Of a stretch of 64,000 bases of DNA, positions 1,718 through 62,272 are shown piece by piece. The position numbers and the translations under genes are program-made. The first letter of the stretch is position 1, and every line of letters begins with the position of its first letter. The notes under the pieces were generated by a model that was not told the origin of the DNA, did not search any database, and saw only the letters and a list, made by a program, of their open reading frames with translations. The stretch is from Tetradesmus obliquus (lineage: Eukaryota > Chlorophyta > Chlorophyceae > Sphaeropleales > Scenedesmaceae): positions 1,541,501 through 1,605,500 of the forward strand of contig CP126194.1 in NCBI GenBank assembly GCA_030272155.1, given 5' to 3'.

Positions 1718-2361
1718 CTTTAGGGTCTTGAGGGTGGAGGTTCTGTTGCTGCCTGCCGTGATTGTCTGCCTAGCTGTCAGTGCCACCCTGCAGCTATCAT
1801 CCTGGGACACATGTCCAGCCTGCACAGTGCTCTTGCTCACGCATGCACACACATTCAACCGTCACACACAGCTGTGCGTCTATGCTGTGCGCGTAATGCT
1901 GCTCCCAGGGCTGATGCTGTTGCGCTGCAAGAGGCGCAGCAAGTGGCGCAGCAGCTGGGGCTGAGCCAGCTGGAGCTGCAGGCAGCTGGCCTCAGGTGTG
2001 CTGGCTGGTTAGATAGATACAGGGGTTACATAGTGTGTTCATGCGGCATACACCACCACAGATACCTGGCTGGTTGGTTAACTTGGCTTGATTACTAGCG
2101 CAGCCTTTTCTTTGTGGCCTACATGATGCAGTGTGCAAACAGTCGTAAGAGGGGGGAGCTGCAGGCAGCTAGCCTTAGGTGTGCTGGCTGGTTGGCTGGC
2201 TGGCTTGGCTTGGCTGGTTGCTGGTGCAGCCGTGAAAGATGTGGCTCACATGATGCAGTGTGCAAACAGTCGTAAGAGCGTGTGCAGGTTTGTCCATGTA
2301 TTTGGCGCCTGCCTTGACTACTGGCGCTGTGATAAACCTACGAGACACACCTCAACCCCTG

Positions 2362-2392
<31 letters not shown>

Positions 2393-5300
2393 ATGTGTAC
2401 GAGCAGGATGCAGCTGCTGCGTGTGCTGTGTGACTACTGCGAGGCTGAGCAGAAGCTACAGCAGCTGCAGCAGGACGATACGTGAGTCGGCGCTCATGAC
2501 AGTTTGCACCTGTTTCGACAGCTGTAGGACTGACCAAGATGCAAGTCAGCTCATTCTCAAGCGCGCAATGCTTGTTGCTGCTGCGCTTCAAGTGCTCACT
2601 GCTGCAGCAGCAGTGCTCGCTGCTGCATCGCTCACTTTGCATTGCTGCTGCACCTCACCTGCACTGCTGCAGGGAGTACCTGGATGCAGAAGATCACCTG
2701 GGCTGCTTTGGCGACATGCTGCAGCGCATGATGCAGCAGTACAAGGAGCAGTATGGCACTACAACAGCAGCACAGCAGCACAGCGAGCTGCCTCCAGCCA
2801 GCAACACAGCAGGTATGGTTGTGCCTGCCCAAGGTGCTGCTGTGCCCTTGCCAGCAGCTTCTTCTCTGGCCACAGCTGCAGCAGCAGCAGCACCAGTGCA
2901 GCAGCAGCAACAGCAGGCAGCAGCGCTCTTGGCGAGGCCTGCAGCTGTACCAGGAGCATCAGGCATGCCAGGCGCTGTGGGTGATGCAGCAGAAGCAGCA
3001 GCAGCAGCAGCAGTGCCGCAGCAGCAGTGCCGCAGCAGCTGCTGCAGCCAACTGAAACAACCAGCAGCATAGTTGCTGCGCTGCTGCCGCCACTACCAGG
3101 GGATGCAGCAGCAGCAGCTGCTGCTGCAGCAGTCCTTGAAGCAGCACCATGTCTGCCACCCACAGCAGCAGCAGCGGCAGCAGCAACAGCAGCAGGCAGC
3201 GTAGACGAGGCATCACTGGCATCGTGGGCTGCACCTTCTCATCAGCAAGATGCTGCTGCTGCTGCTGTTGCTGCCGCTGCTGGTGCTTTCAGCTCACCCA
3301 CCAAGGTGCTGCTGCCTACATCAGCTGCTGCTCTGTCATGCTTGGCCGCTGTCCCTGCAACTCCAACAACAGCAGCACTGCCACCAGTCACAGCAAAACC
3401 TATAGCAGCAGCCACACCAGCAGCAGCAGCGGCGCTGCCGGGGCTGCCATCCATCCTGCGGCCTTCTGTGCAGTACAGCAGGAGGCCGCAGTTCCTGGCA
3501 GGAGCAGAGCCGCAGCAGGGTGTAGATGCTGATGCTGCTGCTGCTGCTGCTGCTGCTGCTGATCGCGCTGCTGCTGCTGGTAATGGTGCTGTGGCGGGGC
3601 TTGCAGTGCCTGGGCCTGAGTGCCGGCTGTGCTACAGGGAGATCAAAACACTGGTGGGTGCGGAATGCAAATCAAGGACTGCTGCTTTGCCTGATTGGTG
3701 CCTGTGCCGGCTGTGCTATTGGGAGATCAGCACACTGGTGGGTGCGGAATCAAGATTCAGGAGTGCTGTGTTGCCTGATTAGTGCCGGGTTGCATCGTGA
3801 CCAGCGCCATCGCTACCTGGCTGCATGCACGCACAGCCCTGACTTCTCTTGTATAAACCATGTGCAGCATGTACAAATGCGCTACACGTCCAGGTCTGCG
3901 CGCGTTGTGTCTGTATGTGTCATTCTATGCCTTCAGGTGTGGTCGGGGCACATAGCCTGGCGTACTCCAGATGGCAAGCGGCAAGGCTCCTTTGCAGCAT
4001 GCGGCCACATCTACCCGCCAGCAGCAGCAGCAGCAGCAGCCTCTGTCAGCAGCAGCAGCAGCTACTGGTCCCGCTACCGCCTGCTGCCCCCTGTGCTGGA
4101 CTTCAATGTAGATGTGAAGGCAGAAGAGTTTGAGGCAGGCATCTGGCAGCAGCCGCCAGCAGCAGCAGCAGCGCCGCTGTGTGCTGGGTGGGACTGCTGC
4201 CCGCTGGTGCTGGTGCCTGGTGCTGCTGCTGACGTGGCGGCGCTGACCCAGCTGATGGAGCTGCTGCGCAACAGCGAAGGGCAGCTGGTGCGTGTTATAG
4301 GCTATGCTTGATCAACCAAAAAGTGGCGTGCCCTTGAAGGTGTCTTGTCATAGGTATCTGCATGGATAGCATGTATGTTGTTGTTGAAGTGCTTCGTCTG
4401 GAGCTGAATCAATTTGCGGCTTTATGTCAATGACTGACTGAATTGCTCTGTCGCATCTAGATCTGATCCCTAAGTGCACACAAGTTGTGTTGTTGACGGA
4501 GAGATTACATTAGCATGTAAGTGTGCGACGAAAGTGGTCGGCAAATGCTATATCCTATTGAGATAGCAATAAGCAAATGTGTACGGATGATGGGGTAACG
4601 TTCCCTGCTTGCCCTGTTGTTTTGCAGGGCTCTTTCCACATGGCCCGAGGCACCTACCAGATCACCACCAGCAGCCAGCCCCAGCAGCAGCAGCAGCAGC
4701 AGCAGCAAGCTCTGACAGCTCACAGCTTTATCAGTTACAACCCTGACGGCCCCCTGCTAGATCTGCTGCAGCAGCAGCTGCCACAGCCAGCCCGCAAGCA
4801 CTGGGCAGCCAGCCCAGCCGCCAGCAGCACATATGACAGCCGGGGACTGTTATATGACAGTGTTAATCCCGTCTGTGTTGTCACAACCAGCTGGTTTGTT
4901 GGCAGGCAGCCTGATCCGCCAGCTTGCATTGCAGCAGGAGTGCAGCAAGCAGCAGTCGGGGCAATGCAGCTGCAGCAAACCCTGGAGCAGCAGCGGCAGC
5001 AGCTGCAGGCTGCAGGCTGGGGCAGGCCAGGGACACCAAAAGGCCAGCAGCAGCAGCAGCAGCAGCAGCAGGTGTGGTCAGACGACATGTCGTTTGTGCC
5101 ACTGCTGCCGCCGCCACACGCAGATTCTGGTGGTGATGTAGCAGGCACTGTTCACGGCACAAGCACCAAACGAGTGCCGCTGCCAGTGCTATCACCCAAG
5201 CAGCAGCAGCAGCAGCCAGCTCGCTTGACACCGCGGACGCCGCTGCCAGCGGCTTCTGGTGCTGCCACTGCCAGCTACCCTGCGATCAGGCGTACCGCAG

Positions 5301-6159: not shown

Positions 6160-9100
6160 TGGCGGCCGCAGTGCTTCGCCTAGTGGTAGGGCTGAAGACT
6201 GGCGTGGGGTTTTGGGGCTGCTGGAGCCGCAGGGTTTAAGTGACAGGGAGGTGGGGGAGTTGAGGTCACTGCTGCTGCTGCACTGCTTTGCTGAGGTGGC
6301 TGCAAGGGAGGGCTTTGGGCTGGCCAACAGGAAAGGTGGGGCGGCTGGTGTGTGTACTGCATGATTGCATGTTTGCATGTGCATGCGCTTGATTTGGGTG
6401 GGAGCGCTGCGCATGATAGTGCAGCATGTGCCAGTTTTGCTTTCAGCCGTTTGTTTTGCTAGATCGCCTTCAGCCTGCAACATTAACAGCTCAATTTTCA
6501 ACGGGACAGTGCTAGGGGCTTGCAGGCGGCCGCACTAGACATGTAAGCCTCATCCCAATGTTGGCTACCCAAGTGCACCTGCTTAAGTACCAATGGTTCA
6601 CCTCCCGAAAAAATTCATAGTTTGCACAGCCCAAACCTCAATAGTCAAGTACTTGATACTGCTGGCAATGCCACACAACTCAATGCAGGTGAGGACATCC
6701 AGCTTGAGCTGGCCTGCGAGCCCTCCCAACACACTGCAAGCTGCTGTTAATGCACGCCAGCTGCCGCACCCTGCAAAGGAACCTATTCCAAAACCCTGTA
6801 CATGTTGCACTGAAATCAATTGCAGGCGAGGCCGTTCAGCTGGAGCTCGCCTGCGAGCCCGCCAGCACACTGCAAGCTACTGTTTGTTGACGCACACCCT
6901 GTTGAAAGCCCATACCTAAACCTCCTACACGGCAATTGCACCCATTGCATTTACCATTCCAACATAACTAATTACTGGTTTACGTGCTGAAAAAACCTGA
7001 ATATTTTACATGTTGTAGGCGAGGCCATCCAGCTGGAGCTGGCCTGCGAGCCCTCCAACATCATGGCAGCTGCTGTTGAGATGCGCCAGCTGGCACAGCT
7101 GCCGCAAAACTTGACACCACCAGGCGGCACGCAGGCCTGGCTGCTGGCCGGCAGCTGCTGCCTGCTGCAGCCAGCTGGGGCGGGGCTCGTCAAGGTGAGG
7201 GTGCTTTTTTTGTTCTGGGTGTTGTGTACACGCGCGTGGTTTAGTGCAGCTAATGCAGCCACAGACACCCCATGAATGTGTCAGATCAACGCTACGCGTA
7301 ACAGTGGTTGCTGCTGCCTGGGCTACACTCCGACTATTGTGCTGGGCGGCTGCTGCTGCTGCTGCTTGTGTGCAGGTGCGCCCGCACTACATGTTCACGC
7401 TGCGCCGCCACAGGCTGCTGGCCCGGCTGCTGGCAGCACTGGCACGGCAGGTGCAGGCCAGCCACGGCAGCAGCAGCAGCAGCAGTGTGCTGCTGCTGCG
7501 GGAGGTGTGGGAGCCTGTGGCAAAGCGGGACAACCCGGCCTTGGCGCCGCTGCTGCTGTATCGACTGGTGCGTAGTGTTGGGGCGTTTTGTATTTCAGAA
7601 CAACCTTGTGCTCTGAAAGACATCGTAGCATCAGCTGAAGCATGGCACTCCATTCAATGGGAATGAGCCGGCTGTAGCTGATGCCACAATCTCTCTTCAC
7701 CTGAGCAAAGTATAATGCAAAAGAGGAGTAGCGGCACCATAGATGCAGGACCTTTGTTTTGAAGACGGTGTGTTTCAGCTCACCTAGGCTGTGTGTTGTT
7801 TTGGTGTGCTGCGTGTCCTCTGTTGAAAGTGCAAAGCAGATGCTTGGTGGCAGCTGCTGCAGCCTGCCGGTCTGCTTGCAGCGATACATGGCCGTGTTTA
7901 TAGACAGCCCGATGTGCTGTGCATGTGCAGCGATCTACGCAGTGGCTGTGGGCAGGCCGTGCCAAGCAACCTACAGCTTGCTGCCGCTGCTGCTGTTGTT
8001 GCTCTGTGTGGCCCTTGGTTCATGCCTGCTGCTGCACCACCCCGCTGCTGCTGCTGCACCCTGCTGCTGCTACTGCTGCTGCTGCTGCTGCTGCCGCAGC
8101 TATACCGCTCCCTGGTTAACTTCCTGGCAGACAACATGGCCGGTGAGCTGCCGGCGTGGGGTCTGGGATTGACCTGAAACTATAAGCAGGCAGCATGCTC
8201 ATTGAGCGGCTGGTGCACCTTTCACTGCACCGTCATGTGGTGATCCCGTCGGTGCATGCACCATAGGCTTAGCAGGGGAGCAGCTGCTGTTGCACTGCAT
8301 CCTGAGGCCCAAGTATCAAGACCGCTCCCAAAGCACTTGGCGGTGGGTCCCTGATATATGCCATGCAGCTGCGTTGCATATCGCAGATTTTAAACGTGTC
8401 TCTGGTTGCTTCTTCAACACTGTGCTTGCACCACATGTAGGTGACCGCACACTGGTGCCACATTCATATCAGGATCCCCTCTCATCTGTGACAATGCACA
8501 TGCAGGCGGCCCCATCGGTGCTATGGTGCGTGACAACATGTTCAGGCTGGTGCCTCATGCGCTGCTGCCGTCCTACCTCAAAGAGCAGCAGGCACAGCTG
8601 GTGACCTTCAGGACACCGAAGCACCCTGGGGCAACACGCAACGCACAGCTGGACTCAGGATACATACAACCGCAGCAGCAGCAGCAGCAGGCTGGCGCGA
8701 GCCCTGCAGCAGCAGCAGAGGGAGACCGCTGGGTGCCACATGATAGCCCTGACAGTGACAGGCACCACCAGCAGCAGCAGCAGCAGCAGCAGAGGCTTAG
8801 CAGCCCCATCCGGCACGTTGTTAGGGAGGAGGAGGAATGCAGGAGGGAGCCACATGTGCGTGGATATGCTGGCCATGGCAAGAGCAGCAGCAGCAGCAGG
8901 GGCAGGAGTCATAGCCGCAGCCTGAGCAGGGCCAGGGGCAGCAGCCCTGCTGGCTGGCAGCAGCAGCAGCAGCAGCAGCAGCACTGCAGCCGGAGCCGCA
9001 GCAGGAGCAGGGGAGCCAGCCCGAGTCCATCAACAGCAGCAGCAGCACCACCACCACCTGCTGCTGCTGCTGCTGCTGCTGGGGGTCAGGCTGTCAGGAC

Positions 9101-9220: not shown

Positions 9221-11337
9221 CAACGTCAAACCCAACACCAGCAGCAGCAGCAGCAGCAGTGGTTTGTCGCTGGAGCTTGCATCAGAGCCTCAGGCTTTGT
9301 TAGATGCTGCTGTGGCTGTTGGGGAGCTGGGCCTGCCAGCTCAGATGCTGCCAAGCGGCTGCAGCCTGGGGCGCTTTGTGCGCAGCGGGCGCTGCGGGCT
9401 GCTGGTGAAGGGCAAGGAGGGTGACAAGACCTGGGTGGGTGGCTGCTATCACTGTAAACGTGTGTTGTGTTGTGGCTGTTCATTCGTTGTATTTGTGCTG
9501 CTGTTGGGGCTGCTTGTGAAAAGCAAGGAGGGCGACAAGACCTGGGTGAGGCGCTGTTAGAATGATGTAACAACCACAAGTAACGGTTATGACAAGTTGC
9601 AATATAATGGCTGTTGATGCTGGTAAAGGGCAAGAAGGGCGGCCAGCTCTGGGGGAGGCGCTGTTACAGCATTGGTGGTACGTTAGTATTTACTTGCTGG
9701 CTGGTCTGTGGCTTTTGTCAGCGCGTTGTGCCTATGCTGCTGTTGGGGCTGCTGGTGAAGGGCAAGCAGGGCAACAAGACCTGGGTGGGTGGCTGTATGT
9801 GACACAGTATCAGTTCTGCTGTAGAAAGTGTCTGTTAGCGTCTATATGTCATGCAGCATCGGCCCTGCTGTGGTAGGGCGGAGCCCGGCCCCAACACTGT
9901 TTTCCTGGCCCCTGGGGACACTGCTTCCATTGCAACACGGTTTGTCAAGGCTTGTCAAGTGCAACGTAACACACATGCATTACAAAACCAGTAGCGCTAT
10001 GTTGTGCTTTCATAATATGTTGCCCACCTCATGTCGCAGGTGGTGCCCGGCTACATGTCGCTGGTGCACGGTCACCGGCTGCTGCGGCGGCTGCTGACCG
10101 CCCTGGTCGCCCACCTGCGCAGCAAGCACCACGGCCTCACACGCATCTACTTCTTCAGGTGGGGCTGGTTGGCTCGAAAGTGTAGACCAGGTCTGTTTGG
10201 CCTTTGCAATATACTCGCTCAGGTGCTCACTCGCATCTACTGTGCAGGTGACGCTGCGGCAGCTGTGCTGGCTGCAAAAGTGCCAGCCTGAGGCAGTGGC
10301 TTTATACGCTGTGATGTGTCCTTTGCATGTCTGAAGGTTCTGCCATCTTCGTCTGTTGGGATTCCCATGTTTTGCTTTGCACAGCCGTACAATTTTAAGC
10401 CGCATGTTGGGCCCCACAAAACGCTTGCTGTTTTTGTGTGTTTGTCTGTGCCCCGCAGGGACATGGAGGAGCTGATGACGCTTGTGCCCTTCTACCACCC
10501 GCTGCTGATCTACAGGGAGGTGAGTGCAAGTTGTGACAGTGTCAATGACTTGTTAGTAACAACTTTATAACAGTCTAATGGCATTTCGACAGGAACAGCA
10601 TGGGGCGACCGTCTTTCCGTGCACAATGCATGGCTGTGGCTGACACTGCAAGAACCGCACACCACCATTACTGCTGCACAACCACGCTGTGACAGTAGAC
10701 TCACGAGCTGCGATGTGCTGACCTGCTGTGCGTGCCTGCCGTGCGTGTGGGTGTGTCTGCTGCTGCAGCTGTACCGCTCCATGCGCGCGTTTGCAGCGGA
10801 CACGGTGTACCTGGCTGGCGAGGTGCTGCTGCAGGACAGGGGGCTGGTGCTGGTGCCACAGGTGCGGGCGCATGTGTGTTTGTGAGTGTTGTTTTGTCGC
10901 TTGTTAAAATGGCTTGTTTAAATGTATGCGTCCATAGCTATGATGCAAATGTGATATTGTTGACTCACCAGGTGTGTGCTTGTTTACGGAGAGCTGCAAT
11001 TTGAAGCCTGGTGATTGCGCTGCTGCTGGTTCCTTTGCGCTGATTTTCTTTGTCGAGCAGTGCTGTTGCTTTTGCTGTCGGGGACAGCCGCTAACACTCT
11101 CGCCTTACGCTGCATCGCTTCTGCTGCTCCTCTGCCATCTGCTTTGTGTTGTGATTTTGCAGTCTGCTGCGGATGCGGCGCCGTGGAGTAGGTTGGAGCG
11201 CATCCGTTACGAGCTGCCTGCAGCAGCCGATGCCAGCCGCGACCTCAGCCTCACAGGACCTGGCAGCCCTGCTGCTGCGGCTGCTGCTGCTGCTGCTGCT
11301 CATGAGGCTGCAAATGATGAGGAGGATGCCAGTGAGC

Positions 11338-12250: not shown

Positions 12251-13851
12251 GGCTGATGCTGATAGCCCCAGGCCAGCCACAGACGGTGCCAACAAGCCTG
12301 CCGACAGCTCCCCAGTGCTGCCGCTGCTGCTGCCAGAGCTAGCAAGTGAGCCTCATCAGCTGCTGCTGCTGTCGGAGCCAGCAAGTCAGCCTCAGCCGTT
12401 ACTGCCAGAGCTAGCAAGTGAGCCTCAGCAGCTGCTGGCAGCACGGCTGGCGATCAGCAGGCTGCTGCCAGCTGATCTGCCAGCAGGGCTTGATGGCTTG
12501 GTGCTGGCTGGCCATGGCTGCAGCAGCTTGGCTGAGTTTGTGGGCAGCAGCAGGTGTGGGCTGCTGCAGCTGGTGCCAGAGCAGGAGGGTGGTGGTATGG
12601 GAGAGCTGCTGGTTCAGGTGGGTGGGGTGGGAAAAGGTGTTGTTTGGTGGGACTGCTAGGTTCTGTGTTGTTGGTAAAGCCTTGCAGTAGCAGCAGTGCT
12701 GCCAATAGGTCTGGATGTGGTGATGGCCTGCAGCAGTGTTGCTGCAATGCTCCGCATGAGCACAATACAGCTATCTTCAGTTCTGCAAGCTATAACTACT
12801 TGGATTTTAGAAGCTTTGCTGGGCTCCTGCCAGGCGCTGCACAATCTGCGTCCACACTTGTCCCACCCGTGTTTCCTGCTGGGGCTGCTGCTACTGCGTT
12901 TTGCCGCAGGTGGTGCCCGGCTACATGTCACTACTGCGCCGTGACAGCCTGCTGCGCCAGCTGCTGTCATCGCTGCTGACACTCCTTCAACAACAATCAC
13001 ATCGTCTCTGTTCTGATCCCTGTTGCAGGTGGTGCCCGGCTGCATGTCTCTGCTGCGCCGCCACAGCCTGCTGCGCCAGCTACTGTCATCGCTGCTGACC
13101 CAGCTGGAGGTGGTGAGGCTGGATGAGTCAGCACCCATCGCGCTGCAGCAGGTGGAGGGAGTGATGGAGGCGTGCTACGCGCCGCTGCTGCTGTACCGCG
13201 CGGTGAGATGCACAATGATTGTCAGTTAGGGTTGAGCTGTCGCTATGTGTTGCATGCATGCGCATTACACGGCAGCGTGAGTTCGACAATTATATTGTTA
13301 TGTGAACTGGTTCCGTAGCTAGGCGTGCATGCCAATTGCATTGTTCCTCTGTCCTATGTGACTGCATCACGATGTCGAGGGCTTCCAAAACATGAGAGGT
13401 GTCCTGACAAGGTGCGCCCGTGCAATTGTACCTTGTTTTCAGAGCCTGTTGTACACTGTATTGTCGCTGTTCTGCTGTGCTCTCTGCCCTGCAGCTCTAC
13501 TCAAGCCTAGAGCGCTTTGCTGCCGACATGATCTCAGGAGCATCCATGCTGCTCATGATGACCCCAAAAGCAGGCGTCGCCACAACCAGCACCAACATCA
13601 CCACCGACCAAGACACGCCAGTTCCCACAGATAATGGAAATGGAGCCGGCGACACTGCATCTGCTTTTGCTGCTGCTGCTGGGGCTGGCAGCAGCAGCAG
13701 CAGCAGCAGCAGCTTCTGGCTGGTGCCTGCAGCTGAGGCAGGCAATGCAGCTGCTGCAGGAATGATGGAAGTATTATACCAGCTGCCTGCAGATGGGCAG
13801 CCGCAGCGCGACATGCGGCTGGGCACAGGCGGGCTGCAGCTGCAGCTGTAG
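814..13851 (+). CDS. Giant Plus3-like / SPOC-domain protein with octad, RS and triplicated modules
   Basis: Exons read: 814-936, about 1023-1178 (5' edge unresolved), 1560-1657, 1909-1995, 2407-2481, 2673-3653, 3937-4287, 4628-6335, 7019-7194, 7376-7567, 8100-8142, 8506-9434, 10040-10158, 10459-10519, 10769-10861, 11163-12617, 13029-13202, 13495-13851. Phases agree from 1178 onward apart from one 14-bp duplication. About 2,390 residues. Residues ~45-160 resemble a Plus3 domain (FLSCSLVRIRT, then VVKVLGLSRNSGIRVSRR). Residues ~503-620 look like a SPOC domain (VWSGHIAW start, LLPPVLDFNVD, CCPLVLVPG). Residues ~889-998 are Tyr-Ser-Pro octads; RS-type segments follow (~1032-1090 and near 8880-9030). 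Three copies of a module end the protein (~1145, 1529 and 1994 onward). Plus3 and SPOC proteins usually act with RNA polymerase II or RNA processing, so a nuclear role is inferred. Could be two genes; continuous phase argues for one. Confidence 0.6.
3011..3038 (+). repeat. 14-bp tandem duplication that shifts the reading frame
   Basis: The 14 bases at 3011-3024 are repeated exactly at 3025-3038. Upstream the coding frame reads EYLDAEDHLGCFGDMLQRMM and runs to a stop at 3072. Downstream the sensible frame (TETTSSIVAALLPPLPGD and on to the exon end at 3653) is offset by exactly the 14 bases of the extra copy. Either the duplication is an assembly or allelic error, or an intron starting at the GT near 2813 removes it. 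Confidence 0.75.
3621..3786 (+). repeat. 83-bp tandem duplication of an exon tail with its donor site
   Basis: The segment starting TGCCGGCTGTGCTA at 3621 recurs at 3704. Both copies hold the exon end CTG followed by the donor GTGGGTGCGG. The first copy is read as the exon 2673-3653 tail and the second lies in the intron. Identity is high but not perfect (for example ACAGG against ATTGG). Confidence 0.8.
5435..5762 (+). repeat. 24-bp tandem repeat encoding Tyr-Ser-Pro octads
   Basis: About fourteen successive 24-bp units encode variants of the octad YSPAGDRQ. The cores include YSPA, YNSA, YSLG, FSPA, YTPA, YISA and YSHA, so the Tyr position and the Ala-Gly-Asp-Arg spacer are best kept while Ser/Pro vary. 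One unit is a residue short and one a residue longer. The repeat sits between the SPOC domain and an Arg-Ser segment in the same long exon. Confidence 0.85.
6114..6158 (+). repeat. (CAG)15 tract in coding exon, read as poly-Ala
   Basis: Fifteen perfect CAG units inside the exon 4628-6335. In the coding frame they read GCA, giving poly-alanine between an Arg-rich stretch and the first copy of the triplicated module. Confidence 0.9.
6689..7194 (+). repeat. Exon-head echo array (two copies before the exon at 7019)
   Basis: The exon starting at 7019 opens with codons for EAIQLELACEPSN. Diverged copies of this head begin after acceptor-like CAG at 6689 (DIQLELACEPS-like, with changes) and at 6826 (EAVQLELACEPAS-like). 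Both copies decay after about 45-60 bp, so only the third leads into the full exon. They lie in the intron 6336-7018. Confidence 0.75.
9435..9800 (+). repeat. Exon-tail echoes after the exon ending at 9434
   Basis: The exon tail encoding GLLVKGKEGDKTW and its donor GTGGGT end at 9434. Copies follow in the intron at about 9505-9544 (LVKSKEGDKTW, donor GTGAGG), 9617-9650 (more diverged) and 9738-9784 (LVKGKQGNKTW, donor GTGGGT). Two of the three keep an intact GT donor. Confidence 0.75.
12910..12985 (+). repeat. Exon-head echo of the exon at 13029
   Basis: About 76 bp starting after a CAG at 12909 encode VVPGYMSLLRRDSLLRQLLS, nearly identical to the exon head at 13029 (VVPGCMSLLRRHSLLRQLLS). 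The echo lacks the rest of the exon. It keeps Tyr where the exon has Cys, matching the paralogous exon at 10040. Confidence 0.8.
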
Positions 13852-17483: not shown

Positions 17484-17503
17484 GGTGACCTGATCAGGTC
17501 ACC
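17484..17503. promoter_or_regulatory. 20-bp perfect palindrome upstream of the GDPD start
   Basis: GGTGACCTGATCAGGTCACC reads the same on both strands and ends 19 bp upstream of the GDPD ATG (17465). It may be a dimeric transcription-factor site or a 5'-leader hairpin; which one cannot be told from sequence. Confidence 0.6.
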
Positions 17504-18608: not shown

Positions 18609-18849
18609 TCAGCTGCTGTAGGGCCTGAACTGCACCTTCATCTCAATCCTGCCAGCACCCTGCTGCTGCTGCTGCTGCCTGCCGCGCCGCCCCCAGCCCT
18701 TGCTGCCCTTTGGCTGCAGCCTCCACCAGCCATCTCGCCAGCCCCTGCCACCTCCTTGACTCCATGTCAAGATGTCTTTGACTGGCAGGTCGCAGAAGCC
18801 GAGCAGGTCATCAGGCTTGAGGTAGTCCCTGTCCCATACCTGCAGAAGG

Positions 18850-18882
<33 letters not shown>

Positions 18883-19105
18883 TCAGTTGGCCGAGGCTGT
18901 CTTTGACTGGCAGGTCACAGAAGCCCAGCAGGTCATCCGGCTTGAGGTAGTCACGGTCCCACACCTGCAGAAGGACAGCAGAAGCAGCAGCAGCAGTAGC
19001 AGCAGCAACAGCAGCAACAGCAGCAGCAGCAGCAGCAGCTGGTCACAGAAGCCCAGCAGGTTATAAGGCTCGTTGGCGTGGATTTAGCCATAACCCCACA
19101 CCTGC

Positions 19106-29061: not shown

Positions 29062-29108
<47 letters not shown>

Positions 29109-44786: not shown

Positions 44787-47700
44787 ATGGCGCTCCAACA
44801 GATGCAGAAGCTCCCGCATCGCTCGGCCTTAACGCAGCATAATATTGCGCCTCATTCGATCGTGGCTGGTGTAAGCCCTGCACGCCTACTGCTACGCGGT
44901 GGCAGGTTCGCCCATGAGCACCACCAGCAGCAACATGTGGCGAGCAGCGTCAGCACTGGAGTCTTGCAGGCAGAGACGCAAGGGTGAGGCTTCTTGAGCT
45001 GCATGGTACAACCATAAACTTATAACCTACCTGCAGAAGCAATTGGACAGGGGCAGTTGACCGTGGCATCCAAACCCACCCACAACTGCTGCTGCTGTTG
45101 CGCCATGTCGCTACCTGTCCTGCAGGCAAGAAGCAGCACCAGTGGCCGCTGCAGCAGCAGCGCCAGCAGCATCAGCAGCAGATGACGACTTTGGCGACTT
45201 CAAATGGACTGAGCACTGGTACCCAGTGCACACGCTGGAGTCAGCAGACCCTGCCAGGCCACATGCAGTGGAGCTGCTGGGCAGGCAGCTGGTGCTGTGG
45301 AGAGATGGCCAGGGCCAATGGCAGTGCATGGAGGACGCCTGCCCACACAGGTAGGGGCAACATCTGAGGTTTTATGTTGTTGTTTTGAAACAGGAATCAG
45401 AATTGATAGCATGGCATGGTTCAGCTAGCAATGATTTAGCTGCCGAACGGACAGTTGCTCTGCGCAGCCCATGCCAGCGTCAACCAAGTGCATGTGGCCT
45501 GTATCTTGCATGCAGCAGGCAGCAGCGCACACCATCCCAAGGTGTTTCGCAGCTGTAGCCATGCCTGCTGCGCTGCACGCGACAGCTGTTACTCTTCTGG
45601 CGCAAAAATCATGACTGCCGATGTGATACTTACAGACACTCCAGAAGCGCTAGGCATACCCGTGCGCATGCCCCACACTTTCTTCATTGGCCTGCTGATA
45701 TCATGACACACTGTAACATTGTCATATTGTTACATTGTGTCATTCTGTTACATCACCTCAGGCTTGCGCCGCTGAGTGAGGGCCGCATTGAGGCTGACGG
45801 CACGCTGCAGTGCAGCTACCACGGCTGGCGCTTCGACAGCAGCGGCAGGTGCACAGAGATTCCTCAGGTGCGCGGAGCAACGGTCATGGTTTGGGAACGA
45901 GAGTATGAGAGTAGAGTGCAATCGCAGAGTGCCTCAACAGCAGCGGCAGTTGCACGGTAATCTCATCAGGTGCGCGGGCTGCAGCGCACAGCAATGATGC
46001 CCACATAAGTTTGCATGTTGATGGGTAGTGTTGCATGAATAACAGCAGCGCTAAATGTCAATGTGCACTGCCGATGTCATGCAACAGCCGCAGCAGCAGT
46101 AGCAGCAACAGCAGCGGCAGCGGCAGCGGCAGCGGCAACGGCAGCAGCAGCAGCAGCAATATATTTTCAGGAATATCTGTTCAACATGCCAACATAATGT
46201 AGAAGCTCCAGAACAGCTCTGCCTTCTTAATCCCTGGACATGCTACCACGCCAATGTGCTGCTGCACTCTCAGGCCATCGACGCAAAGGCCAAAGCCGTG
46301 GCCTGCAGCAGCAGCCGCTCCTGTGTTACACGCTACCCCACACGCACAGAAGCCGGCCTCATTTGGGTGTGGCCCACACCTGGCCCTGAGGCTGAGTCAG
46401 CAGCAGCAGCACAGCATGTTTCTATTAGTAAGGCTGCTGCTGCCAAGTTTGCGGAGGGTGGGGCGGGCACCTGGTACCGGCGGGAGCTGCCGTACAGCTG
46501 GGACGTGCTGGTGGAGAACCTGACTGACCCATGTGAGTTGTAACATGTTATACTGTTATATTGAAAACATAATAAATGGCAGGTGACAGCTATGCTGCAT
46601 CATTTGTGGGTGCGGAGGGTGGGGCAGGCACGTGGTACCGCATGGAGCTGCCTTACAGCTGGGATGTGCTGGTGGAAAACGTGACTGATCCGTGTTAGTG
46701 TTAACTTGTTGCATTGTTACATGGTGGGTTTGAATGGCAGTTGAAAGCTGTCTTGCAACGATTGTGGGTGCGCAGCTGGGATGCACTGGAGGTCATGCGT
46801 GCTGGCACAGGTATTACTACTTCGTTTTTTGATGTTGTGGCAGCTGTAGTATCATCAAGGCTTGGCCTCAACACCAGTCGCTTACACCCAGTGCAAACGT
46901 GTGTGGTGCAGCAGCTTCAGCTCCCAGGCTCAGCAGCAGCCCGCCACCTGCAACCTGCCAAACCCCTGCCTTCACCATGCCGCCACTGCTGCTGCTGCAA
47001 CTGCTGCTGCAACGTATACAGCGCACCTCCCCTTCAGCCACCACAACCTCACGCCCACCCTTAAGCGCAGCAAGGGCGAGGCGCCAATGCCCGTCACCCC
47101 TCTGCAAGCACCGCAGCAGCCCACCACCTGCAACCTGCTAGATCCTGCTCTCACCACACTGCCACAACCACTGCTGCCACTGCTGCTGCCCACATACAGC
47201 ACACCCGCCATCTGCCGCCTCCTGCCCTCACCAAGCTGCAACTGCTGCTGCAACTGCGCTGCTGCAACTGCTGCTGCCACATCAACAGCGCACCTGCCCT
47301 TCAGCCACCCCAACCTCACACCCACCCTCAAGCGCAGCAAGGGCGAGGCGCCAATGCCCGTCACCCCTCTGCAAGCACCGCAGCAGCCCACCACCTGCAA
47401 CCTGCTAGATCCTGCTCTCACCACACTGCCACAACCACTGCTGCCACTGCTGCTGCCCACATACAGCACACCCGCCATCTGCCGCCTCCTGCCCTCACCA
47501 TGCTGCAACTGCTGCTGCTGCTGCCACTGCGCTGCTGCAACTGCTGCTGCCACGTATACAGCGCACCTCCCCTTCAGCCACCACAACCTAACCCCCACCC
47601 TCAAGCGCAGCAAGGGCGAGGCCCCAATGCCCTTCACCCCGCTGCACATCCCACAAGGTGACTCAGCGGAAGATGTGGAGGCCCGGCCGTCATTTACAAT

Positions 47701-51542: not shown

Positions 51543-54500
51543 TCACACCTTCAGCTGTGCCATTAGCCTGCTGCTCTCCTGAACCCCATACGCCCCTTCA
51601 ACCTCAGCCGGTTGCTTATCTACAGCTACAGCTTCAACCTGGCCTGCTGTCTCGCCAGCTGCTGCTGCTACACTGCCAACCAGCAATCCAACCGCCTGAC
51701 TACCTGCTGCTGCTGCTGCTGCTGCTGTTATTGGTTGGCCTGGCTGGTGCTGCTCCCCATGGCCGCCAGCAACAGCAGCCAGCAGCCCTAGCTGCTGCAA
51801 TGCTGCCAGGCAGTCTGCTGCAAGCCGCTGCAGTGGCTGCACATGCCACAGCTCCAGCAGCAGAGCCGGCAGGTCTTCCGGCATGTGGAAATCCACTGCT
51901 GCTGCTGCTGCTGCTGGTGGTGTGGCGCTGCTGCTGCCGCGCTGGTCTGCTTGTGCAGCAGATGCGAGAAGCGTATGCAGCAGCTGCAGTGCCGCTGCTG
52001 ATGCCCGAACAACCTGTGGATCTACTACCCGGCCCAACCCCTGATCAAACGGAGATGCCGGCCGCACTCCTGATGTGCCGAGGCCGCTGCTGCCGCTGCT
52101 GCCGCTCCGTCTGTGTGCATGTCGTACCGCAGGGTGTAGGTCTAGGTCATTGAGTTGGGTTTCAGAGTCCGGGGTTTGGGGCTCAGTGCCCGGCAGGGCG
52201 TCGGGCGCAGGCATGACTGCTGCCCATTTGACGAGTGCTGCGTAGATGGTGCGCGCTGCGCCTGCTGATAGAGCTGCAAACGCCAGCTGCCTGCTTTGCT
52301 TTGTGAGCGCTGTCAGCACCTGCATAACAAGAACACCAAACCCATACAAACGTTGCAGGTTGCTGACAGATCAGTCCGATACAACGCACGTGCACTAATG
52401 ACGACATGAGCAGCTTTACAGGCCTGTACCACCCACCTCATGCAGCAGCATCGGCCGGTGACCGAGTAACATCACGTCATCACAGAAACACGTAACCACA
52501 GCCACGCAACACATGTCAGAACGTGTTACAACGCCACACCTTGCAGCCGTCCACCTCATGCGGCAGCATCGGCCAGTAAGCAGAATACCATGCAAGCACA
52601 ACCACAACCACATACGTTTTGTGACTCAACGCATGCAGCCGTGCCGCACCTTGTAGCCGTCCACCTCATGCGGCAGCATGGGCCAGTCAGTGGCAGTACC
52701 ATCACCGCCACACTGAAACACAACCGTAAGCACGCAGTCAACTCATCCCTTCGTCACCTTGTAAGCACGCAGTCAACTCATCCCTTCGTCACCTTGTAGC
52801 CCTCCACCTCGTGCGGTTGGCCAGGATCAAGTAACATCATCGCTGACCATGTATCTACAACTACAAACACATGTTACAACGCCGCACCTTGTAGCCGTCC
52901 ACCTCATGCGGCAGCATCGGCCAGTCTGTGGCATCACCCGCAGCCAGCACAGCCAGCAGCGCAGCAGCAGCACTTGGCCCCGCCGCCTCCAGCGCTGCTG
53001 CTGCTGCCGGGGTGGCTGCGTAGGGCTGCATACGCTCCAGGCTGGTGATGAGGAAGGGCACCAGCCGCGCCACCTGCAGCATTGTTACAGTGTTACATCC
53101 ACATGTTACTTTTGAAGAACTGTCTATAGTTACATTTGATATGTGCTCCAGGCTGGTGATGAGGAAGGGCACCGGCCGCGCCACCTGCAGCGTTGTCACA
53201 GCTTTATTCCCACATGTTATCTTTGACCAAATGCCTATGGTTCAAAATCAATATGCGCTGCAGGCTGGTGATGAGGAAGGGCACCAGCCGCGCCACCTGC
53301 AGCGTTGTTACAGTGTTATATCCACATGTTATCTTTGACCAAATGCCTATGGTTCAAAATCAATATGCGCTCCAGGCTGGTGATGAGGAAGGGCACCAGC
53401 CGCGCCACCTGCAGCACGCATTGACTTAACAAGTCAAACCTTTGGGAGTGACAGACAGCCTCAAACCCAATACAATTTTATGATGATCAGACATATGGTT
53501 GAAGTGCAGCCTGGCTTTCTGCAGGGCGACAGGCGCGCAGCTGTGACAAGAGCCTGTGCTGTGACGTCTGGCAGCGCTATGTAGCATCAAGGCATGGCAG
53601 TAGCATCACAGCGCAAGTGTGCATCTTTCATATTCAACCTACAAACACGCTTCACATGCACGCATAGCTAGACCTTACGGCCTGCCAAACGCAGCTCCAC
53701 CCACCTCAATGACAACCCCCATGTGAGCCGCCACCAGGTCATCCGGCCAACCACTGCTGCTGCTGCTGCTGCTGCCGACAGCTTGCGATGCCGTCCGTAT
53801 CTGCCTCTCTCCTGCTGGTGCTGGCGCTGCTGCCTGCTTTTCAGCACTGCTACTGCTCCCACCAGCACCGCCGCCACCACCCTCATTACTGCCGCCAGCA
53901 TCCGCTGCGCACAGCAAGTCGAATATATCCAGCAGCGTGGTATGCAGCAACCCAAGCAGCTGCCGTTCAATGCCATGCTGCCGCACCAGCTGTGCCACAC
54001 TGCTGCATGCAGCCACTAGCGGCTGCTGTGCCCCCAGCTGCAGCAGCTGCTGCAAGCTCCATGGGGGGCTCAGTTCGTGGTGTATGTTTGCAAAGCCGCC
54101 AAGCATGCCTGGGCCGCCGCCCACGCAGCGCTTGAGCAGCTGCAGGCATTTGAAGAGCTTGTGGGGGTCGGGGGAGGCCAGGCCGCGGAACAGTACTTCG
54201 CGGAAAGGTCTGCAGGCACGACAACACCAGAAGCAGAGGCGCAAGTGATGCGGTGAAATGCTCAAACAGCTTGTGGGGTCCCGCGGAGGCCAGGCGGGGG
54301 AACACTACTTTTTTAAGAGCCTGCAGAAACACACGACACACAGCGGCACAGGTCCCTGGGCGGTAAGCATCCCTGGGCGGTCTCCCACGCGGCGCTTGAG
54401 CAGCTGCAGGCATTTCAAAGAGCTTGTGGGGGTCCTGGGATTGCAGGCCTCGGAAAAGTACATCGCGGAACGGCCTGCATACCAAACAACAGTGTTAGGA

Positions 54501-55584
54501 GGCGCACAGGTGAGCAGTGGAGCCCAGAAAGCTCTAGGCTCCTGGAGAGGGCAGGCTACAAAACAGCCTTCGCGGAAGGGCCTGCAGCAGAGAGAAGTCG
54601 ACACACAGCGGCACAGGTGAAGCATGCCTGGGCCGCCTCCCACGCAGCGCTTGAGCAGCTGCAGGCACTTGAACAGCTTGTGGGGGTCGGGGGAGGCCAG
54701 GCCCCGGAACAGTACTTCACGGAAGGGCCTGCAGGCAGGACAGCAGCAGGAGCAGAGGCACAGTTGGAGCAGCTGCAGGCACTTGATGAGCTTGTGGGGG
54801 TCTTGGGATTGCAGGCCGCAGAACAAAACTTTGCGGAACGGCCTGGGGCAGCAAGACAAGACAAGTCACTTGAAGCGCTTGTAGGGGTCTGATGACGCTA
54901 GGCCGCGGAACAAAACTTTATGAATTGGCCTACAGGCAGCACAGATGAATCAAGTGGCCTTTAAATGCGTGATCAGGCCGTTACACAGCGATGCATTTCA
55001 CGTAGTCAAGGCTCTCAATCAAGATCAGGTGGTTGATGCAGAGGAATCACACAGATGCACAACTGCGCACCAACACAAGCCACACAGCCCACCTGTCGCG
55101 CAGCAGGCCCTGCATAGCCGCACTGGTGGTGTCGTCCAATGCCAATTGAGTTGAGGCCATTTATGCAGCTTCCACATACACATGCGGCACAAGCAGCATG
55201 CACACAGCCCACCTGCCACGCAGCAGGCCTACATAGCCGCGCTTGTGACACTACATCACACTGATGCAGTTCTGTTTAGTCCAGTCCTTCAATCGGGGAG
55301 GTGATTGATGCACACACATCGCACGACTGCACAGCGCAGCGGCTTATTCTCAAACCTACAAACATACAACAAACCCACCTGTCGCGCAGCAGGCCCTGCA
55401 TTGCGGCGCTCGTGATGCAGTCCAGTCCTTCAATCGAGATAAGGTCATTGATGTAGCCCACGCTCACGTGAGGGTCACGGTCACAGGCGGACGGCCGCGC
55501 CAGCAGCGTGCGCAGCGCCAGGCTCACAAACAGCGGCTGCAGTTGTGTATGCAGAAAAGACCCCCGAAAGCGGCGCCGGCGGCA

Positions 55585-55617: not shown

Positions 55618-57250
55618 GCAGCAGCAATGGTAAGATGCATGCAGAGGGCCGCGCCAGCAGCGTGCGCAGCGCCAGGCTCACAAACAGCGGCTGCGGGGTT
55701 GAGGTGTGCACAGTTCACAAGATCACAACAGTGGCGGCAACATGAGCAGGCAGAGAAAGCTCGGCTGCCGCTGTGAAGGTGAGCTGCCGTGTTGCCTGCC
55801 CCCCACCTGATCAATGACTGCTGCATTCAGGCATCATGTCCAGTCGGGATGTTACATGCATGCCAGTCAGCAAGCTGAGTCAGCGTCCCACCTGGGCCCT
55901 CAGTGCATTGAGCTCCGAGGTGTCTGGGATGATCAGCTCAGACTCATCCACTGCAGCAGCATCAGATTGCACACAGCGATACAGTTGGTAAGGACCCAGG
56001 TGTTCAGCAATACAGAAGCAGCATCCTGCAATGCTTGAGCGTGATGGCGCAACACCCAGCAGTTCGCAGGTGCCGCTGCGCAGCCCAGCAAGACCCAAAC
56101 ATGTCAGACACAACTGCTGCTGCTGCTGCTGCTGCGCTGTAGAGGACAATGCTAGGCGTGCACACCTCCCCCTCCACCTCCACGCCACGCTGTCAATTAG
56201 GACTTCAAACATTTCGTGCCAGAATCCACTGTAACTTCACCATATGAAGAACATCATTGCACCTGAACGGTTCAGGCTGAACCCACCCGCATCATACACC
56301 AAATGTGTGCAGCCCTCTGCTGGCAAACACCACCTGTGTTTTCCTTTTTGACTGCCGTATCCACCACAACCCCCAACCCCCGAAAGCTGAACTGCAACAC
56401 CCACCCGCATCGTACACCAGGTGTGCGTAGCCCTCCGCAGCAAATGCTGCCGGCACGTCCTGCAGCAATGCCGCCAGGATGGACAGCAGGTGGCTGGCAG
56501 TCACAGGCGCATACGCGGCGGCAGCAGCAGCAGCAGCAGCAGCAGCAGTCTCGTCACCGGTGCTGCTGCTGCTGGCTTGCAGCACTTTGTAAATGGCTGC
56601 GATTGCGTTGCCCTCATAAAGGGCGTTGCGTGCCAGCAGCCCTGCTCGCAGGCAGGCGAGGGTCCCCAGCTGGTACACGTCTGACCAGAGGCGCTTGTAG
56701 CAGGCGTCTGTGGGAAAGGATCGATGTGGCAGCAGCAGCAGCAGCGGCAGTTGCAGCAGGCGGCAGCAGTGGTGAGTGCAAACACGGGGAGGAGAACCTG
56801 CCCAGTCCCTACTTGTGACAGTGCCTGTACACACGAGTGCATAGCTGCCGACGCTGTTGCTGCGGCTGCTACTTCACTCTGATCAAGAGTTCTATCATCT
56901 GCTTGTTTTTTGTGCACAAACAGGCATGTGCGCGATTGAGTTGCCCGCACAGGACCCACTGTGCATACAGCTGCAAGTTAATACCTGATAGCTGATGTTC
57001 CAAGCTGCCAATCAGATATGCAGCAACTGCAGCCACAGATATTCCAAAGCTGACCAGCCAATACGTTTAGTCTATCTCTTCTGAAGTGCTGCAGCCTACT
57101 ACAAGCGTGTGTTAGCAGCAGCACAGCAGCAGAGCAGGAACATACAACACCTGCACCAAGCACCTCACCTATGGCTGCAGCAGCATCGGCCACGGTGTCT
57201 GGATGAGACAGTCTAGGTATGTTATTCTTAATCGTTGCTATGGGGTCCAT
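51543..57250 (-). CDS. Unrecognised helical (possibly ARM-like) protein, 689 residues
   Basis: Exons 57169-57250, 56405-56707, 55892-55950, 55379-55536, 53705-54209, 52888-53073 and 51543-52319 join in phase. It begins MDPIATIKNNIPRLSHPDTV. Leu/Ala-rich amphipathic helices dominate: YKRLWSDVYQLGTLACLRAG, LLSILAALLQDVPAAFAAEG, LFVSLALRTLLARPSACDRD, FREVLFRGLASPDPHKLFKC, LVPFLITSLERMQ and LTALTKQSRQLAFAALSAGA. This spacing suggests an armadillo/HEAT-like solenoid, interrupted by Ala/Gly/Ser-rich linkers; the C-terminal quarter is less ordered. I do not recognise the family. It shares a 407-bp divergent gap with the HIRAN gene. Four of its six introns contain splice-junction echo arrays, the densest in the window. 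Confidence 0.75.
52425..52815 (-). repeat. Exon-tail echoes of the PMLPHEVDGYK exon
   Basis: The exon tail encoding WPMLPHEVDGYK with donor GTGCGG ends at 52888. Copies lie at about 52785-52815, 52645-52690, 52538-52585 and 52428-52460. The 52645-52690 copy keeps MLPHEVDGYK and a GTGCGG donor. A separate 35-bp tandem (GTAAGCACGCAGTCAACTCA units) sits at 52728-52796. Confidence 0.75.
53073..53408 (-). repeat. Four-copy acceptor/exon-head array, ~112-bp period
   Basis: Acceptor CTGCAG plus the head VARLVPFLITSLER begins at 53073 (real exon), 53184, 53296 and 53408. Spacing is 111, 112 and 112 bp. The copies are almost identical over about 45 bp of exon sequence and share intron sequence between them. 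Confidence 0.9.
54209..54929 (-). repeat. Seven-copy acceptor/exon-head array
   Basis: Copies of the exon head (RPFREVLFRGLASPDPHKLF family) start after CAG/TAG acceptors at 54209 (real), 54320, 54474, 54581, 54728, 54842 and 54929. The 54474 and 54728 copies extend 90-110 bp with strong similarity. The 54728 copy is nearly identical to the real head through KRCVGGGPGML; others have shifts or stops. Confidence 0.9.
55085..55700 (-). repeat. Echoes on both flanks of the FVSLALRTLLARPSA exon
   Basis: Exon 55379-55536. Its head (LFVSLALRTLLARPSA) recurs upstream at about 55635-55696. Its tail (AAMQGLLRDR plus GTGGG donor) recurs downstream at about 55085-55130 and 55205-55240. Head copies lie only upstream and tail copies only downstream. 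Confidence 0.85.
56260..56335 (-). repeat. Exon-tail echo of the EGYAHLVYDAG exon
   Basis: The tail of exon 56405-56707 (FAAEGYAHLVYDAG, donor GTGGGT) recurs as LPAEGCTHLVYDAG with a GTGGGT donor in the following intron. Confidence 0.8.
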
Positions 57251-59884: not shown

Positions 59885-59889
59885 TGTAA
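59885..59889 (+). terminator. TGTAA polyadenylation signal of the HIRAN gene
   Basis: TGTAA occurs 30 bp after the HIRAN stop codon, matching the usual green-algal poly(A) signal and a short 3' UTR. Confidence 0.5.
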
Positions 59890-60773
59890 ATGACGATTCT
59901 AGACAAAGCCAGGATCTAAAGGACGCTGGTCATGCACAGTTGCGCACATTGTGTCCCAACTGGCAGCAGTGTGCTGGGGAACTGGTTGTTATTGGCGCTG
60001 ATCAGTGCTTTGTCGTTGCACTGACTGGCTGGCGTCAGTTTTGCATACTCTGAACGAGCCAATGTCTACCCTGTAGCTGCCACGTAGCACTTGTTACACG
60101 TGCAGGTTGGTTGAGTGTGCTGCATGCACAGCGCATGCAAACATGGTTACGTGGCCCGGTTGAGCAAGGTGGCTTGCGCAACCTTGTAACTCAGTGTCCT
60201 GGTGGATTCTGGATTGTGAGTTGTGCCTTCAAAGATGTAGTTTATCTGAGCACACTGTGCTGAGCACGTGCATGGGCCTTGTATTGCTAGAACAATCGGC
60301 CTGACACTGTCAAAGCTTTGCTTTGCTTTTACATAGCATATTATACTGTGCATAATCCCGTTACAATGTCCCATCCACAACCTCCCTGGTCAAACCCCAC
60401 CTCACTGCCAACCCTCATTGACGTCATCTAGATCCCCAAACCAGGACAGAGCCGTGGCATGTACCACCCTGCACCTGTGTCATGCCATAGCTGCACCCGC
60501 TGCTCTTTCTTGCTGGAACGAAAAGCAGCAGTGCAGCGCACCACCAACAACTCCTGCTGAAGCTCCTGCTGAAGCAGCAGCCGCTTCACACGAGAGCCCT
60601 TAAAGAAGCTCTTGGCCGCACATTGCAGCGAAGGGCCGCAACACAGCCTAAATGCTGCACCACCACTGGCGCCAGCACGCTTCTCCTCCCTGCTCAACAT
60701 TCCGTCATCAGCAACACCAGACTCGCTGTTGCTGCTGCTTTATGCCGCTGCTACTATATATTGCTGCTGCTGC
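59890..60773. other. Convergent intergenic region
   Basis: Lies between the HIRAN gene (+) and the L17 gene (-). A TTACA (minus TGTAA) near 60361 may serve L17. No supported gene. Confidence 0.5.
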
Positions 60774-62272
60774 TTACACCAGCTCGATGACTGCCATCTC
60801 CGTGGCGTCGCCCCTGCGCAGGTATGGCTCCGGCTTCACGCGTGTGTAGCCGCCGTTGCGCTCCGCGTAGCGCTCCGGGGCAGCAGCAAACAGGCTGGCC
60901 ACCAGCTCCTTGTCAAACACAAACGCCAGCGCCTGCATTTGGACAATACCAAAAAAAGGTGAGGTTATTGTCAGCCACCAAACAGCCACGGAACAAGGCA
61001 GGGAGCAGCATTCATAACAGGCTGGCCACCAGCTCCGTTACACACCAACGCCAGCGCCTGCATTTCAGAAGCATAGAGTACAAGATTGAAGATGTGGAGT
61101 CTGCCACAACACATCAGTTCAAGGCAGCGCAGCGACAAACAGGCTGGCCACCAGCTCCTTGTCAAACACAAACGCCAGCGCCTGCGTGGTCGAAGAACGG
61201 CAGGCATGAACACAGTGTCAGCAGCAAAGCAACCATAGAGCTCCGGACAGTAGAGGCAGCGCAGCAGCAAACAGGCTGGCCACCAGCTCCTTGTCAAACA
61301 CAAACGCCAGCGCCTGCGCGGTTGCAGAAGGTTTACAAACGGAACGTCGGTCAGACAAGATTGAAGTGGTGCCGCGTTTGCAGGATAACTCCACATGGCA
61401 GGGCAGCTGCTTGAGACCTTAACACACAGGCACATGTGACGCATGCCTGGCACGCTGAGGATCCTAATAGATGACGACCGTTGTGTGCAGTGCTAACAGG
61501 ATCCGCAACAGCGTCTAGAGCTACACAGCAGGACACCTGCCTTGAACAAGACGCTGAAGCCAAGCCTGCTGTCAAAGCACAAGCAGCGACAGCATGCCTT
61601 GCGCTGCGCAGTACTCCCTGCCGAAATGCAATGGCAAAAAAAGCACATACCATTGGCATTTTAGGAACAAGAACTAGCATGGATGACAACAAGTGCGCTG
61701 CTGGGCCATCCCCTGCCATGTGACAAGCTGCTGCTGCGCACCTGGCGGCGTGCGTGCAGGCTGCCGTCCTTTGCAAGGGTGATCATCTTGTCCACGTAGC
61801 TCTTGATGACCTTGGCCTTGACCTACAGCAGCAGCAGCAGCAGCACAATCAGTGTTATCGAGTGCATAGTTGCTCCGTGCCCTGACCAGTCCCAAAGCAG
61901 CTGGTGACTATATATGATATGCATGTGCACTCCCTGACACACTTCAGTCCAGCAGCTGCACACGGCACCCGCAAGGTGCAGCTGCAGCATCTGCCACTGG
62001 CCTCCTGGCGCAAGCGCTGCTGCTGCTGCTGTCAACGCTTCTGCCACTGCTCCGTGCCTGAACGCCTGTGCGCCCGCCAGCACCTGCTTTGTGCGTGCAG
62101 TGCTGCACGCACACATCCTGCAATTATGTTGCTGTGCAACACGTGCATCTGAATGCCACGCCCTGCACGCTGCCAGCTGTGGCTGCCGTTGCTGCTTGCA
62201 CTGAATCCCTTTGTGTAACTCTCCCGCCAAAAGCCTGCTGCATTGTTTGCTGCTGCTGCTGCTGCTGCTGCG

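Follow-up and report, generated by a model that had tools for sequence, protein, structure and literature searches.

Copies of exon ends in introns of Tetradesmus obliquus: probable traces of recurrent local duplication across splice junctions

The stretch of DNA considered here, hereafter the window, comprises 64,000 nucleotides (nt) of the green alga Tetradesmus obliquus (C4:1541501-1605500; genome of 104.66 Mb in 17 contigs). An ESYT-like gene (C2/SMP, extended synaptotagmin-like) and bL17c, which encodes a plastid ribosomal protein, are found on its minus strand, and in these genes, as in several predicted genes on both strands, partial copies of an exon lie next to that exon. A copy of an exon start with its acceptor is termed here a head echo, and a copy of an exon end with its donor a tail echo. 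An original prediction made from the sequence had pointed to such copies at 13 positions, of which 12 were found inside repeat copies; the exception was 26784, with a pair nearby (26877-26980 and 27012-27115). The features of the window are compiled in Table 1.

In order to avoid judging solely on a window picked by a reader, five comparison blocks placed at round coordinates were included, four of 50 kb from contig C1 (B1 to B4, B1 being C1:1000001-1050000) and one from C7 (B5). Exon models were obtained with the strict version of a self-trained gene finder (splice consensus CAG/GTGAG and TGCAG/G). These models merge adjacent genes and call some echoes exons, and the key counts were therefore redone on three genes whose exons were fixed from outside proteins, namely the ESYT-like gene, bL17c and ClpR2 (on C1, about 1,017,466-1,022,549). 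In the ESYT-like gene, the hand-set borders are approximate from exon 8 onward and leave 10 stops in the joined frame. These protein-anchored genes were selected for carrying echoes, so that the 22 echo-carrying junctions among the 51 tested in them (1 of 52 queries was skipped for masked sequence) give no genome-wide rate.

The repeat scan considered short-range direct pairs in the window and B1 to B4 (264 kb), with triplet runs masked and with pairs excluded when their triplet or hexamer autocorrelation was >=0.6, their offset >1.5 kb or their score <40 bits. It was observed that 164 direct repeat pairs were present, 88 of them within the window, against a single inverted pair, and no short-range direct pair was recovered from Markov shuffles of the same 264 kb. 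The pairs formed 66 clusters, in which 53 bridged a predicted splice junction, 2 were intron-only, 4 intergenic, 6 coding and 1 of another kind. Block B5 stands outside the repeat-pair, cluster and 45-nt junction-test counts, as well as a filtered set of 53 pairs, and inside the 343-intron count, the series of 45-mer matches by distance, the simulation, the comparison of intron lengths and the outermost-echo counts given below.

The anchoring at exon ends was also evident when 45-nt segments were compared on the gene-finder models. Exon heads matched the preceding intron in 15/269 tests, the following intron in 2/240 and a random intron in 1/269, and exon tails matched the following intron in 22/256, the preceding one in 3/231 and a random one in 0/256; shuffled introns gave 0/269. 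Segments from exon interiors matched introns only once in each of two series (1/108 and 1/96), and segments from intron ends and intron middles matched the remainder of their own intron in 4/195, 5/226 and 7/235 cases. The matches of exon 45-mers to adjacent introns fell with distance from the exon end, from 29/610 (within 45 nt) to 7/374 (45-90 nt), 4/513 (90-200 nt) and 2/986 (beyond). The proposed fading of similarity into the exon was, in the cases inspected, mostly an averaging effect of copies that end at various depths, 20-100 nt past the exon border.

In the three anchored genes, the 17 head copies detected lie without exception in the intron before their exon and the 23 tail copies in the intron behind it; no match came from 561 comparisons with the remaining introns of these genes. 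The strict rule that had been proposed, heads only upstream and tails only downstream, is exact in these genes, whereas on the gene-finder models, in which 525 junction tests showed the same directional trend, 5 of 471 tests matched the wrong intron. A 1480-nt intron of ClpR2 illustrates this arrangement: four tail echoes derived from the preceding exon come first, and two head echoes derived from the following exon come behind them. The echoes in the anchored genes each correspond to one exon end, heads lying only 5′ and tails only 3′; a duplicate of a whole exon with both splice sites, as in tandem exon duplication or mutually exclusive exons, was not found in these genes. The supposition that the echo farthest from an exon is always the most similar to it failed, the picture being mixed.

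In the proteins matched to the three anchored genes, every exon appears a single time and the 40 detected echoes are absent, in agreement with a duplication that straddles the junction and leaves the inner site in use. ClpR2, when joined from its true exons, agreed with T. obliquus OEZ85_007551 in 300 of 301 residues, with no gap, and the Clp protease structure chain 7eko_L aligned to the true exons and skipped the echo exons. The C2/SMP gene matched T. obliquus A0A383VQB5 at 97%; this protein and P0242, whose source contig of 2546 nt is too short for the introns, use each exon of the gene once. For bL17c, the chloroplast protein in PDB 28jw_N presents one ALAF.DK.L-like segment, against four in the window DNA. 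The gene predictor exonised echoes in all three genes. In one residue, A0A383VQB5 (RATAAGEG) agrees with the echo at 25313-25411 and not with exon 25111-25270 of this strain (RANAAGEG), which might come either from common descent or from sequence passing between the echo and its exon.

The differences between echoes and true copies were distributed over codon positions as 108:87:210, with a third-position excess that was weak in the window (83:66:131) and strong in B1 (21:17:78). Changes private to the true copy fell mostly on third positions (3:2:12), whereas those private to one echo were more even (24:19:33). Indels were present in the exon part of 25 of 88 redundant pairs, and 53 of the 58 indels were not multiples of three, so that a strict coding constraint on echoes was rejected. 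Both the third-position bias of the true copies and the frame-breaking indels of the echoes point to the true copy as the coding one and to echoes as sequences that, as a rule, are non-coding. The new introns or alternative exons that had been tentatively suggested are not supported: the matched proteins revealed no new intron between copies and no alternative exon in the three anchored genes, and most echo-exon indels break the frame. The suggestion of spare splice sites fared better and is plausible from the sequence, as the splice dinucleotide was kept in 49 of 53 echoes (AG in 17/18 acceptors and GT in 32/35 donors), with scores near those of the true sites.

The presence of exon-end copies in the introns of T. 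obliquus is confirmed. They were found in 35 of 343 introns over 314 kb, amounting to 18/95 (19%) in the window and 17/248 (~7%) outside it. The original prediction had spoken of a lineage-wide process; echoes do occur in all five blocks outside the window, unevenly (B1 10/53, B2 1/53, B3 1/56, B4 3/35, B5 2/51), and this extent is established for one genome. The middle half of the nearest echo spacings ranged from 112 to 176 nt. The median length of introns was 378 nt with an echo (n=34, the number being 35 or 34 by slightly different filters) and 229 nt without (n=309; p=3e-5), bearing in mind that longer introns also give more room for matches.

Table 1. Echoes and their source exons in the window (window coordinates; strand as in the window).
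Gene	Feature	Position	Strand	Protein match
bL17c	True last exon (acceptor 60932)	60774..60932	-	P0001/P0002 match 60935-60777 at 100%
bL17c	Head echo of the 60932 exon, 57 nt, 100% identical, acceptor 61313	61261..61317	-	
bL17c	Head echo of the 60932 exon, acceptor 61181	61129..61185	-	
bL17c	Decayed head echo of the 60932 exon with indels, acceptor 61057	61003..61061	-	
ESYT-like	True last exon	18612..18839	-	T. obliquus A0A383VQB5 (P0241) matches 18845-18612 at 98.7%
ESYT-like	Head echo of the 18839 exon, acceptor 18964; another at 19185-19242, partial at 19041-19070	18908..18970	-	
ESYT-like	True head of exon 20299-20430	20374..20434	-	P0241/P0242 match 20432-20298
ESYT-like	Head echo of exon 20299-20430, 97% over 61 nt; wrongly fused with the true exon by the gene finder	20500..20560	-	
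ESYT-like	Head echo unit of exon 20768-20898	20982..21116	-	
ESYT-like	Head echo of exon 21205-21366 with its acceptor at 21617, and a partial one at 21452-21480	21537..21622	-	
ESYT-like	Tail echo of exon 22757-22844	22657..22693	-	
ESYT-like	Head echo of exon 24109-24241	24313..24361	-	
ESYT-like	Tail of exon 24109-24241 in four echoes spaced by ~96 to 149 nt	23655..24062	-	
ESYT-like	True exon between head echoes (25313-25547) and tail echoes (24571-24960)	25111..25270	-	P0241/P0242 use 25271-25110 once
ESYT-like	Three tail echoes of exon 25111-25270, 90-94%	24571..24960	-	
ESYT-like	Head of exon 25111-25270 in two echoes with a 136-nt unit, 92-94%	25313..25547	-	
ESYT-like	Head echo of exon 25831-26002, which also has a tail echo at 25695-25769	26109..26195	-	
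ESYT-like	Tail echo of exon 27019-27815, 96% over 104 nt	26877..26980	-	
ESYT-like	Tail echo of exon 28942-29201	28823..28880	-	
	Tail echo of predicted exon ending 1995	2155..2193	+	
	84-nt tandem unit over predicted donor 3653, copies 3620-3702 and 3704-3786	3620..3786	+	
	Head of the predicted exon that starts at 7019, in two echoes with acceptors 6689 and 6826	6677..6884	+	
	Tail of the predicted exon that ends at 9434, in three echoes (9507-9559, 9610-9666 and 9746-9795)	9485..9796	+	
	Head echo of predicted exon starting 13029, 92% over 75 nt	12906..12980	+	
Presumably Rieske/PAO-like	267-nt unit, ~2.5 copies, repeating the exon head; the used copy is putative	46978..47646	+	
	Tail echoes of predicted exon with donor 52888	52433..52933	-	
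	111-nt unit array: true head (predicted acceptor 53073) and its head echoes	53030..53416	-	
	Head-echo array around predicted acceptor 54209	54101..54944	-	
	True tail of predicted exon 55379-55536 together with its tail echoes at 55088-55169 and 55201-55248	55081..55457	-	
	Head echo of predicted exon 55379-55536 (acceptor 55536), 95% over 57 nt	55638..55694	-	

Other repeats were noticed in the window. An in-frame coding minisatellite of 24 nt, with ~13 copies and a GDRQYSPA-like repeat, lies at 5430-5745. A near-perfect 46-nt palindrome is found at 16383-16428, in a predicted intron of a gene which we take to be glycerophosphodiesterase-like, and another, of 20 nt, at 17484-17503. CAG/CTG triplet runs are abundant in exons and introns alike (6% of the window was masked) and mislead gene and repeat finders.

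The echoes are probably explained by recurrent local duplication across exon ends in the nuclear genome of T. obliquus. In this process, a segment reaching across the border between an exon and the adjoining intron would be duplicated a short distance away. The protein would remain unchanged only when splicing takes the downstream one of two duplicated acceptors, or the upstream one of two duplicated donors. Surviving heads would thus precede and surviving tails follow their exons, since only such products leave the protein unchanged, and copies within an exon would be mostly purged. The direction rule itself is directly shown by the data, and selection is the cause that we infer for it; as a protein-preserving copy must sit on the intron side, the rule needs no special machinery. 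The shapes of the arrays suggest that, after a second exon-end copy has formed, unequal recombination between the two could expand them into arrays. Echoes would then be spliced out with the intron, decay and lengthen it, while long keeping usable-looking splice sites.

Recent duplications of whole units were found in B1, at 19320-19859 (98%), 44782-45221 (97%) and 41132-41449 (94%), which demonstrates that tandem duplication of junction-crossing units of 118-120 nt happens. A test of the spacer in 36 true-echo pairs, with offsets >260 excluded, was reported as giving 17 spacers with a recognisably duplicated intron part, 4 exon-like and 17 like neither flank, with 5 pairs beyond these classes covered by exon-like sequence. 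As for head-to-tail arrays of a single unit, as in an intronic minisatellite, arrays such as that of B1 at 19320-19859 are of this kind, and the 17 of 36 pairs without unit homology are not. In five of six arrays worked through, the aligned length exceeded whole units by 48-98 nt (422=3x118+68, 199=119+80, 270=2x111+48, 234=136+98 and 169=110+59). This excess is roughly the length of an exon end and a few further bases, which would fit growth of the arrays through recombination between two exon-end copies; in the sixth, at B1 44782-45221 (321=2x120+81), it is not clearly assignable to a junction.

Splice junctions are not the sole setting of such echoes. At C7:3511836-3512546, approximately the last 85 nt of a predicted minus-strand coding sequence, together with its stop, are echoed downstream of the gene model. 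These coding-tail echoes measure 86 nt (full) and 42 nt, with TGA in the gene and TAA and TAG in the echoes, and their non-coding flanks, judged by eye, are homologous but more diverged. This case suggests that the limits of what remains visible are set by the ends of coding sequence in general and not only by splice sites. Moreover, when measured with 45-mer tiles, local duplication is not rare in intergenic DNA (65 of 1367 tiles, satellites among them, compared with 47 of 1877 tiles from introns), which argues that it also takes place away from exon ends. A satellite of ~199 nt, with several copies outside predicted exons, was found at C1:10007171-10008587.

However, several observations weigh against plain duplication. 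First, in simulations of uniform tandem duplication with selection and decay, junction-bridging, intron-only and intergenic clusters appeared as 1 : 0.67-0.80 : 0.71-0.75, whereas 53:2:4 were observed (without B5). The intron half of echo units was detectable in only 12 of 35 echo introns, and this frequent invisibility accounts for part of the exon-end excess; yet, after calibration for visibility, ~11 intron-only cases would be expected against the 4 seen, so that a milder deficit, roughly threefold by the report's arithmetic, remains. Second, the intron-side similarity of the outermost echo ended within 10 nt at 13 of 43 junctions and exceeded 25 nt at 22 of 43, whereas simulated single pairs with an intron side <10 nt were uncommon (6, 8 and 18 of ~300); the analysis that gave these simulated values kept 53 observed pairs, with the echo on the intron side of the junction and >=18 nt of exon. 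Third, several young pairs are 94-98% identical in the exon and their alignment stops 2-7 nt into the intron; pairs with almost no intron similarity include B1 19247/19102 (98%), B1 44266/44114 (95%) and 20430/20556 of the window (97%). The 17 of 36 spacers resembling neither flank weigh in the same direction, and the comparison covers a single genome. Uniform duplication followed by decay was therefore rejected as incomplete, as a full explanation, on the grounds of cluster classes and short intron sides. The latter may result from intron halves that diverge fast in some introns, from exon halves that are refreshed, or from copying of exon ends only.

The last of these possibilities corresponds to a different mechanism, in which repair would copy exon ends with a few splice-motif intron bases into the adjoining intron, the arrays expanding later. 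Templated insertion primed at GTGAG/TGCAG, or repair guided by spliced RNA or R-loops and ending at exon borders, are examples of such routes, among the R-loop-, RNA- and nick-based models of repair. We regard this mechanism as unlikely, even though the surplus of exon-end over intron-only copies, the young pairs stopping just inside the intron, the array lengths of whole units plus about one exon end and a few nucleotides, and the steep drop of 45-mer matches away from exon ends are all in its favour. The 17 of 36 pairs that keep intron-part homology are what plain duplication predicts, and six of the ten young pairs examined, from three arrays, keep >=124 nt of intron similarity. The stop-containing coding tail on C7, echoed past the gene end with homologous flanks, and the B1 44782 array, whose excess is not clearly tied to one junction, also argue against exon-anchored copying, of which no molecular intermediate was seen. 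Should the exon ends themselves be the copied unit, which is rather improbable, a process bounded by splice junctions (spliced RNA or motif-primed repair) would place exon-end fragments, complete with splice sites, in nearby introns, lengthen introns genome-wide, and seed alternative sites and, eventually, new introns.

The intact dinucleotides and near-true scores of 49 of 53 echoes, together with the third-position excess, strong in B1, could also be read as signs that selection keeps echoes as decoy or alternative splice sites, which would tune splicing or feed nonsense-mediated decay. This is quite doubtful, since the 49 sites are near the neutral expectation (~45 at 8% per-site decay, by the report's arithmetic), the third-position excess is weak in the window, frame-breaking indels and some lost sites are present, and no echo appears in the matched proteins. 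Gene conversion from the true exon, keeping the exon parts of echoes alike while intron parts drift under uniform duplication, would account for those pairs whose exon halves have stayed much closer to each other than their intron halves and for the greater similarity that the farthest echo can show, as in bL17c. It is nevertheless very unlikely, because intron halves should convert too and conversion, as the report reasons, should even out codon positions, whereas third positions are in excess. Finally, false local duplication of haplotypes during assembly is hardly credible: although the draft assembly of one T. obliquus strain is about twice the size (PMC5552973), which the report takes as readable as diverged haplotypes, the copies differ by substitutions and indels, form graded arrays, respect exon borders and gene direction, and are held by a chromosome-scale assembly in several genes on C1, C4 and C7.

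Local duplication across exon ends, the reading preferred here, has known relatives. In the RdRp gene of potato, a tandem duplication crossing an intron-exon boundary, with acceptor, polypyrimidine tract and exon head, as in T. obliquus, created a new intron between the copies, whereas in T. obliquus the upstream head copy stays intronic and the intron lengthens (PMC4974935). Unlike that single gene, T. obliquus carries multi-copy arrays and exon-end copies in about a tenth of the sampled introns. The AGGT or proto-splice-site model of intron gain (Rogers 1989, via PMC4974935 and PMC2891723), for which a duplication was inferred in Drosophila (PMC2891723), likewise invokes local duplication supplying extra splice signals; as cited there, however, an exonic AGGT is duplicated to give a new intron, whereas in T. 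obliquus existing junctions are duplicated, with none new in the anchored genes. Internal gene and exon duplications (Gao and Lynch 2009, via PMC4974935) are similar in being partial intragenic duplications with exon and intron sequence, but are cited for segments with entire introns, while the T. obliquus copies are single exon ends.

Introners are members of one dispersed family present in many genes. They resemble the echoes as intron content generated in bulk in an alga, but introners are dispersed, whereas echoes are local and gene-specific. The self-comparison of the window revealed local pairs, its most distant matches being mostly triplet repeats or paralogous exons, and no near-identical dispersed introns of the introner type within the window.

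A genome-wide standing load of exon-end copies may not have been described before, as no account of it was found in a limited search. Junction-crossing duplication is a proposed source of introns, for which the portion of the literature consulted describes single or few cases. In T. obliquus, many duplications of graded age, some of them 97-98% identical, make its early steps accessible to observation, including the rate of origin, the choice between near-equal sites by splicing and the possible conversion of some into new introns. A practical warning also follows, namely that gene predictors exonise echoes. The mean intron measures 462 bp in T. obliquus, against 230-302 bp in four other green algae (PMC5966456). 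Together with the greater length of echo introns, these values fit growth by echo accumulation, which may help explain the longer introns of T. obliquus.

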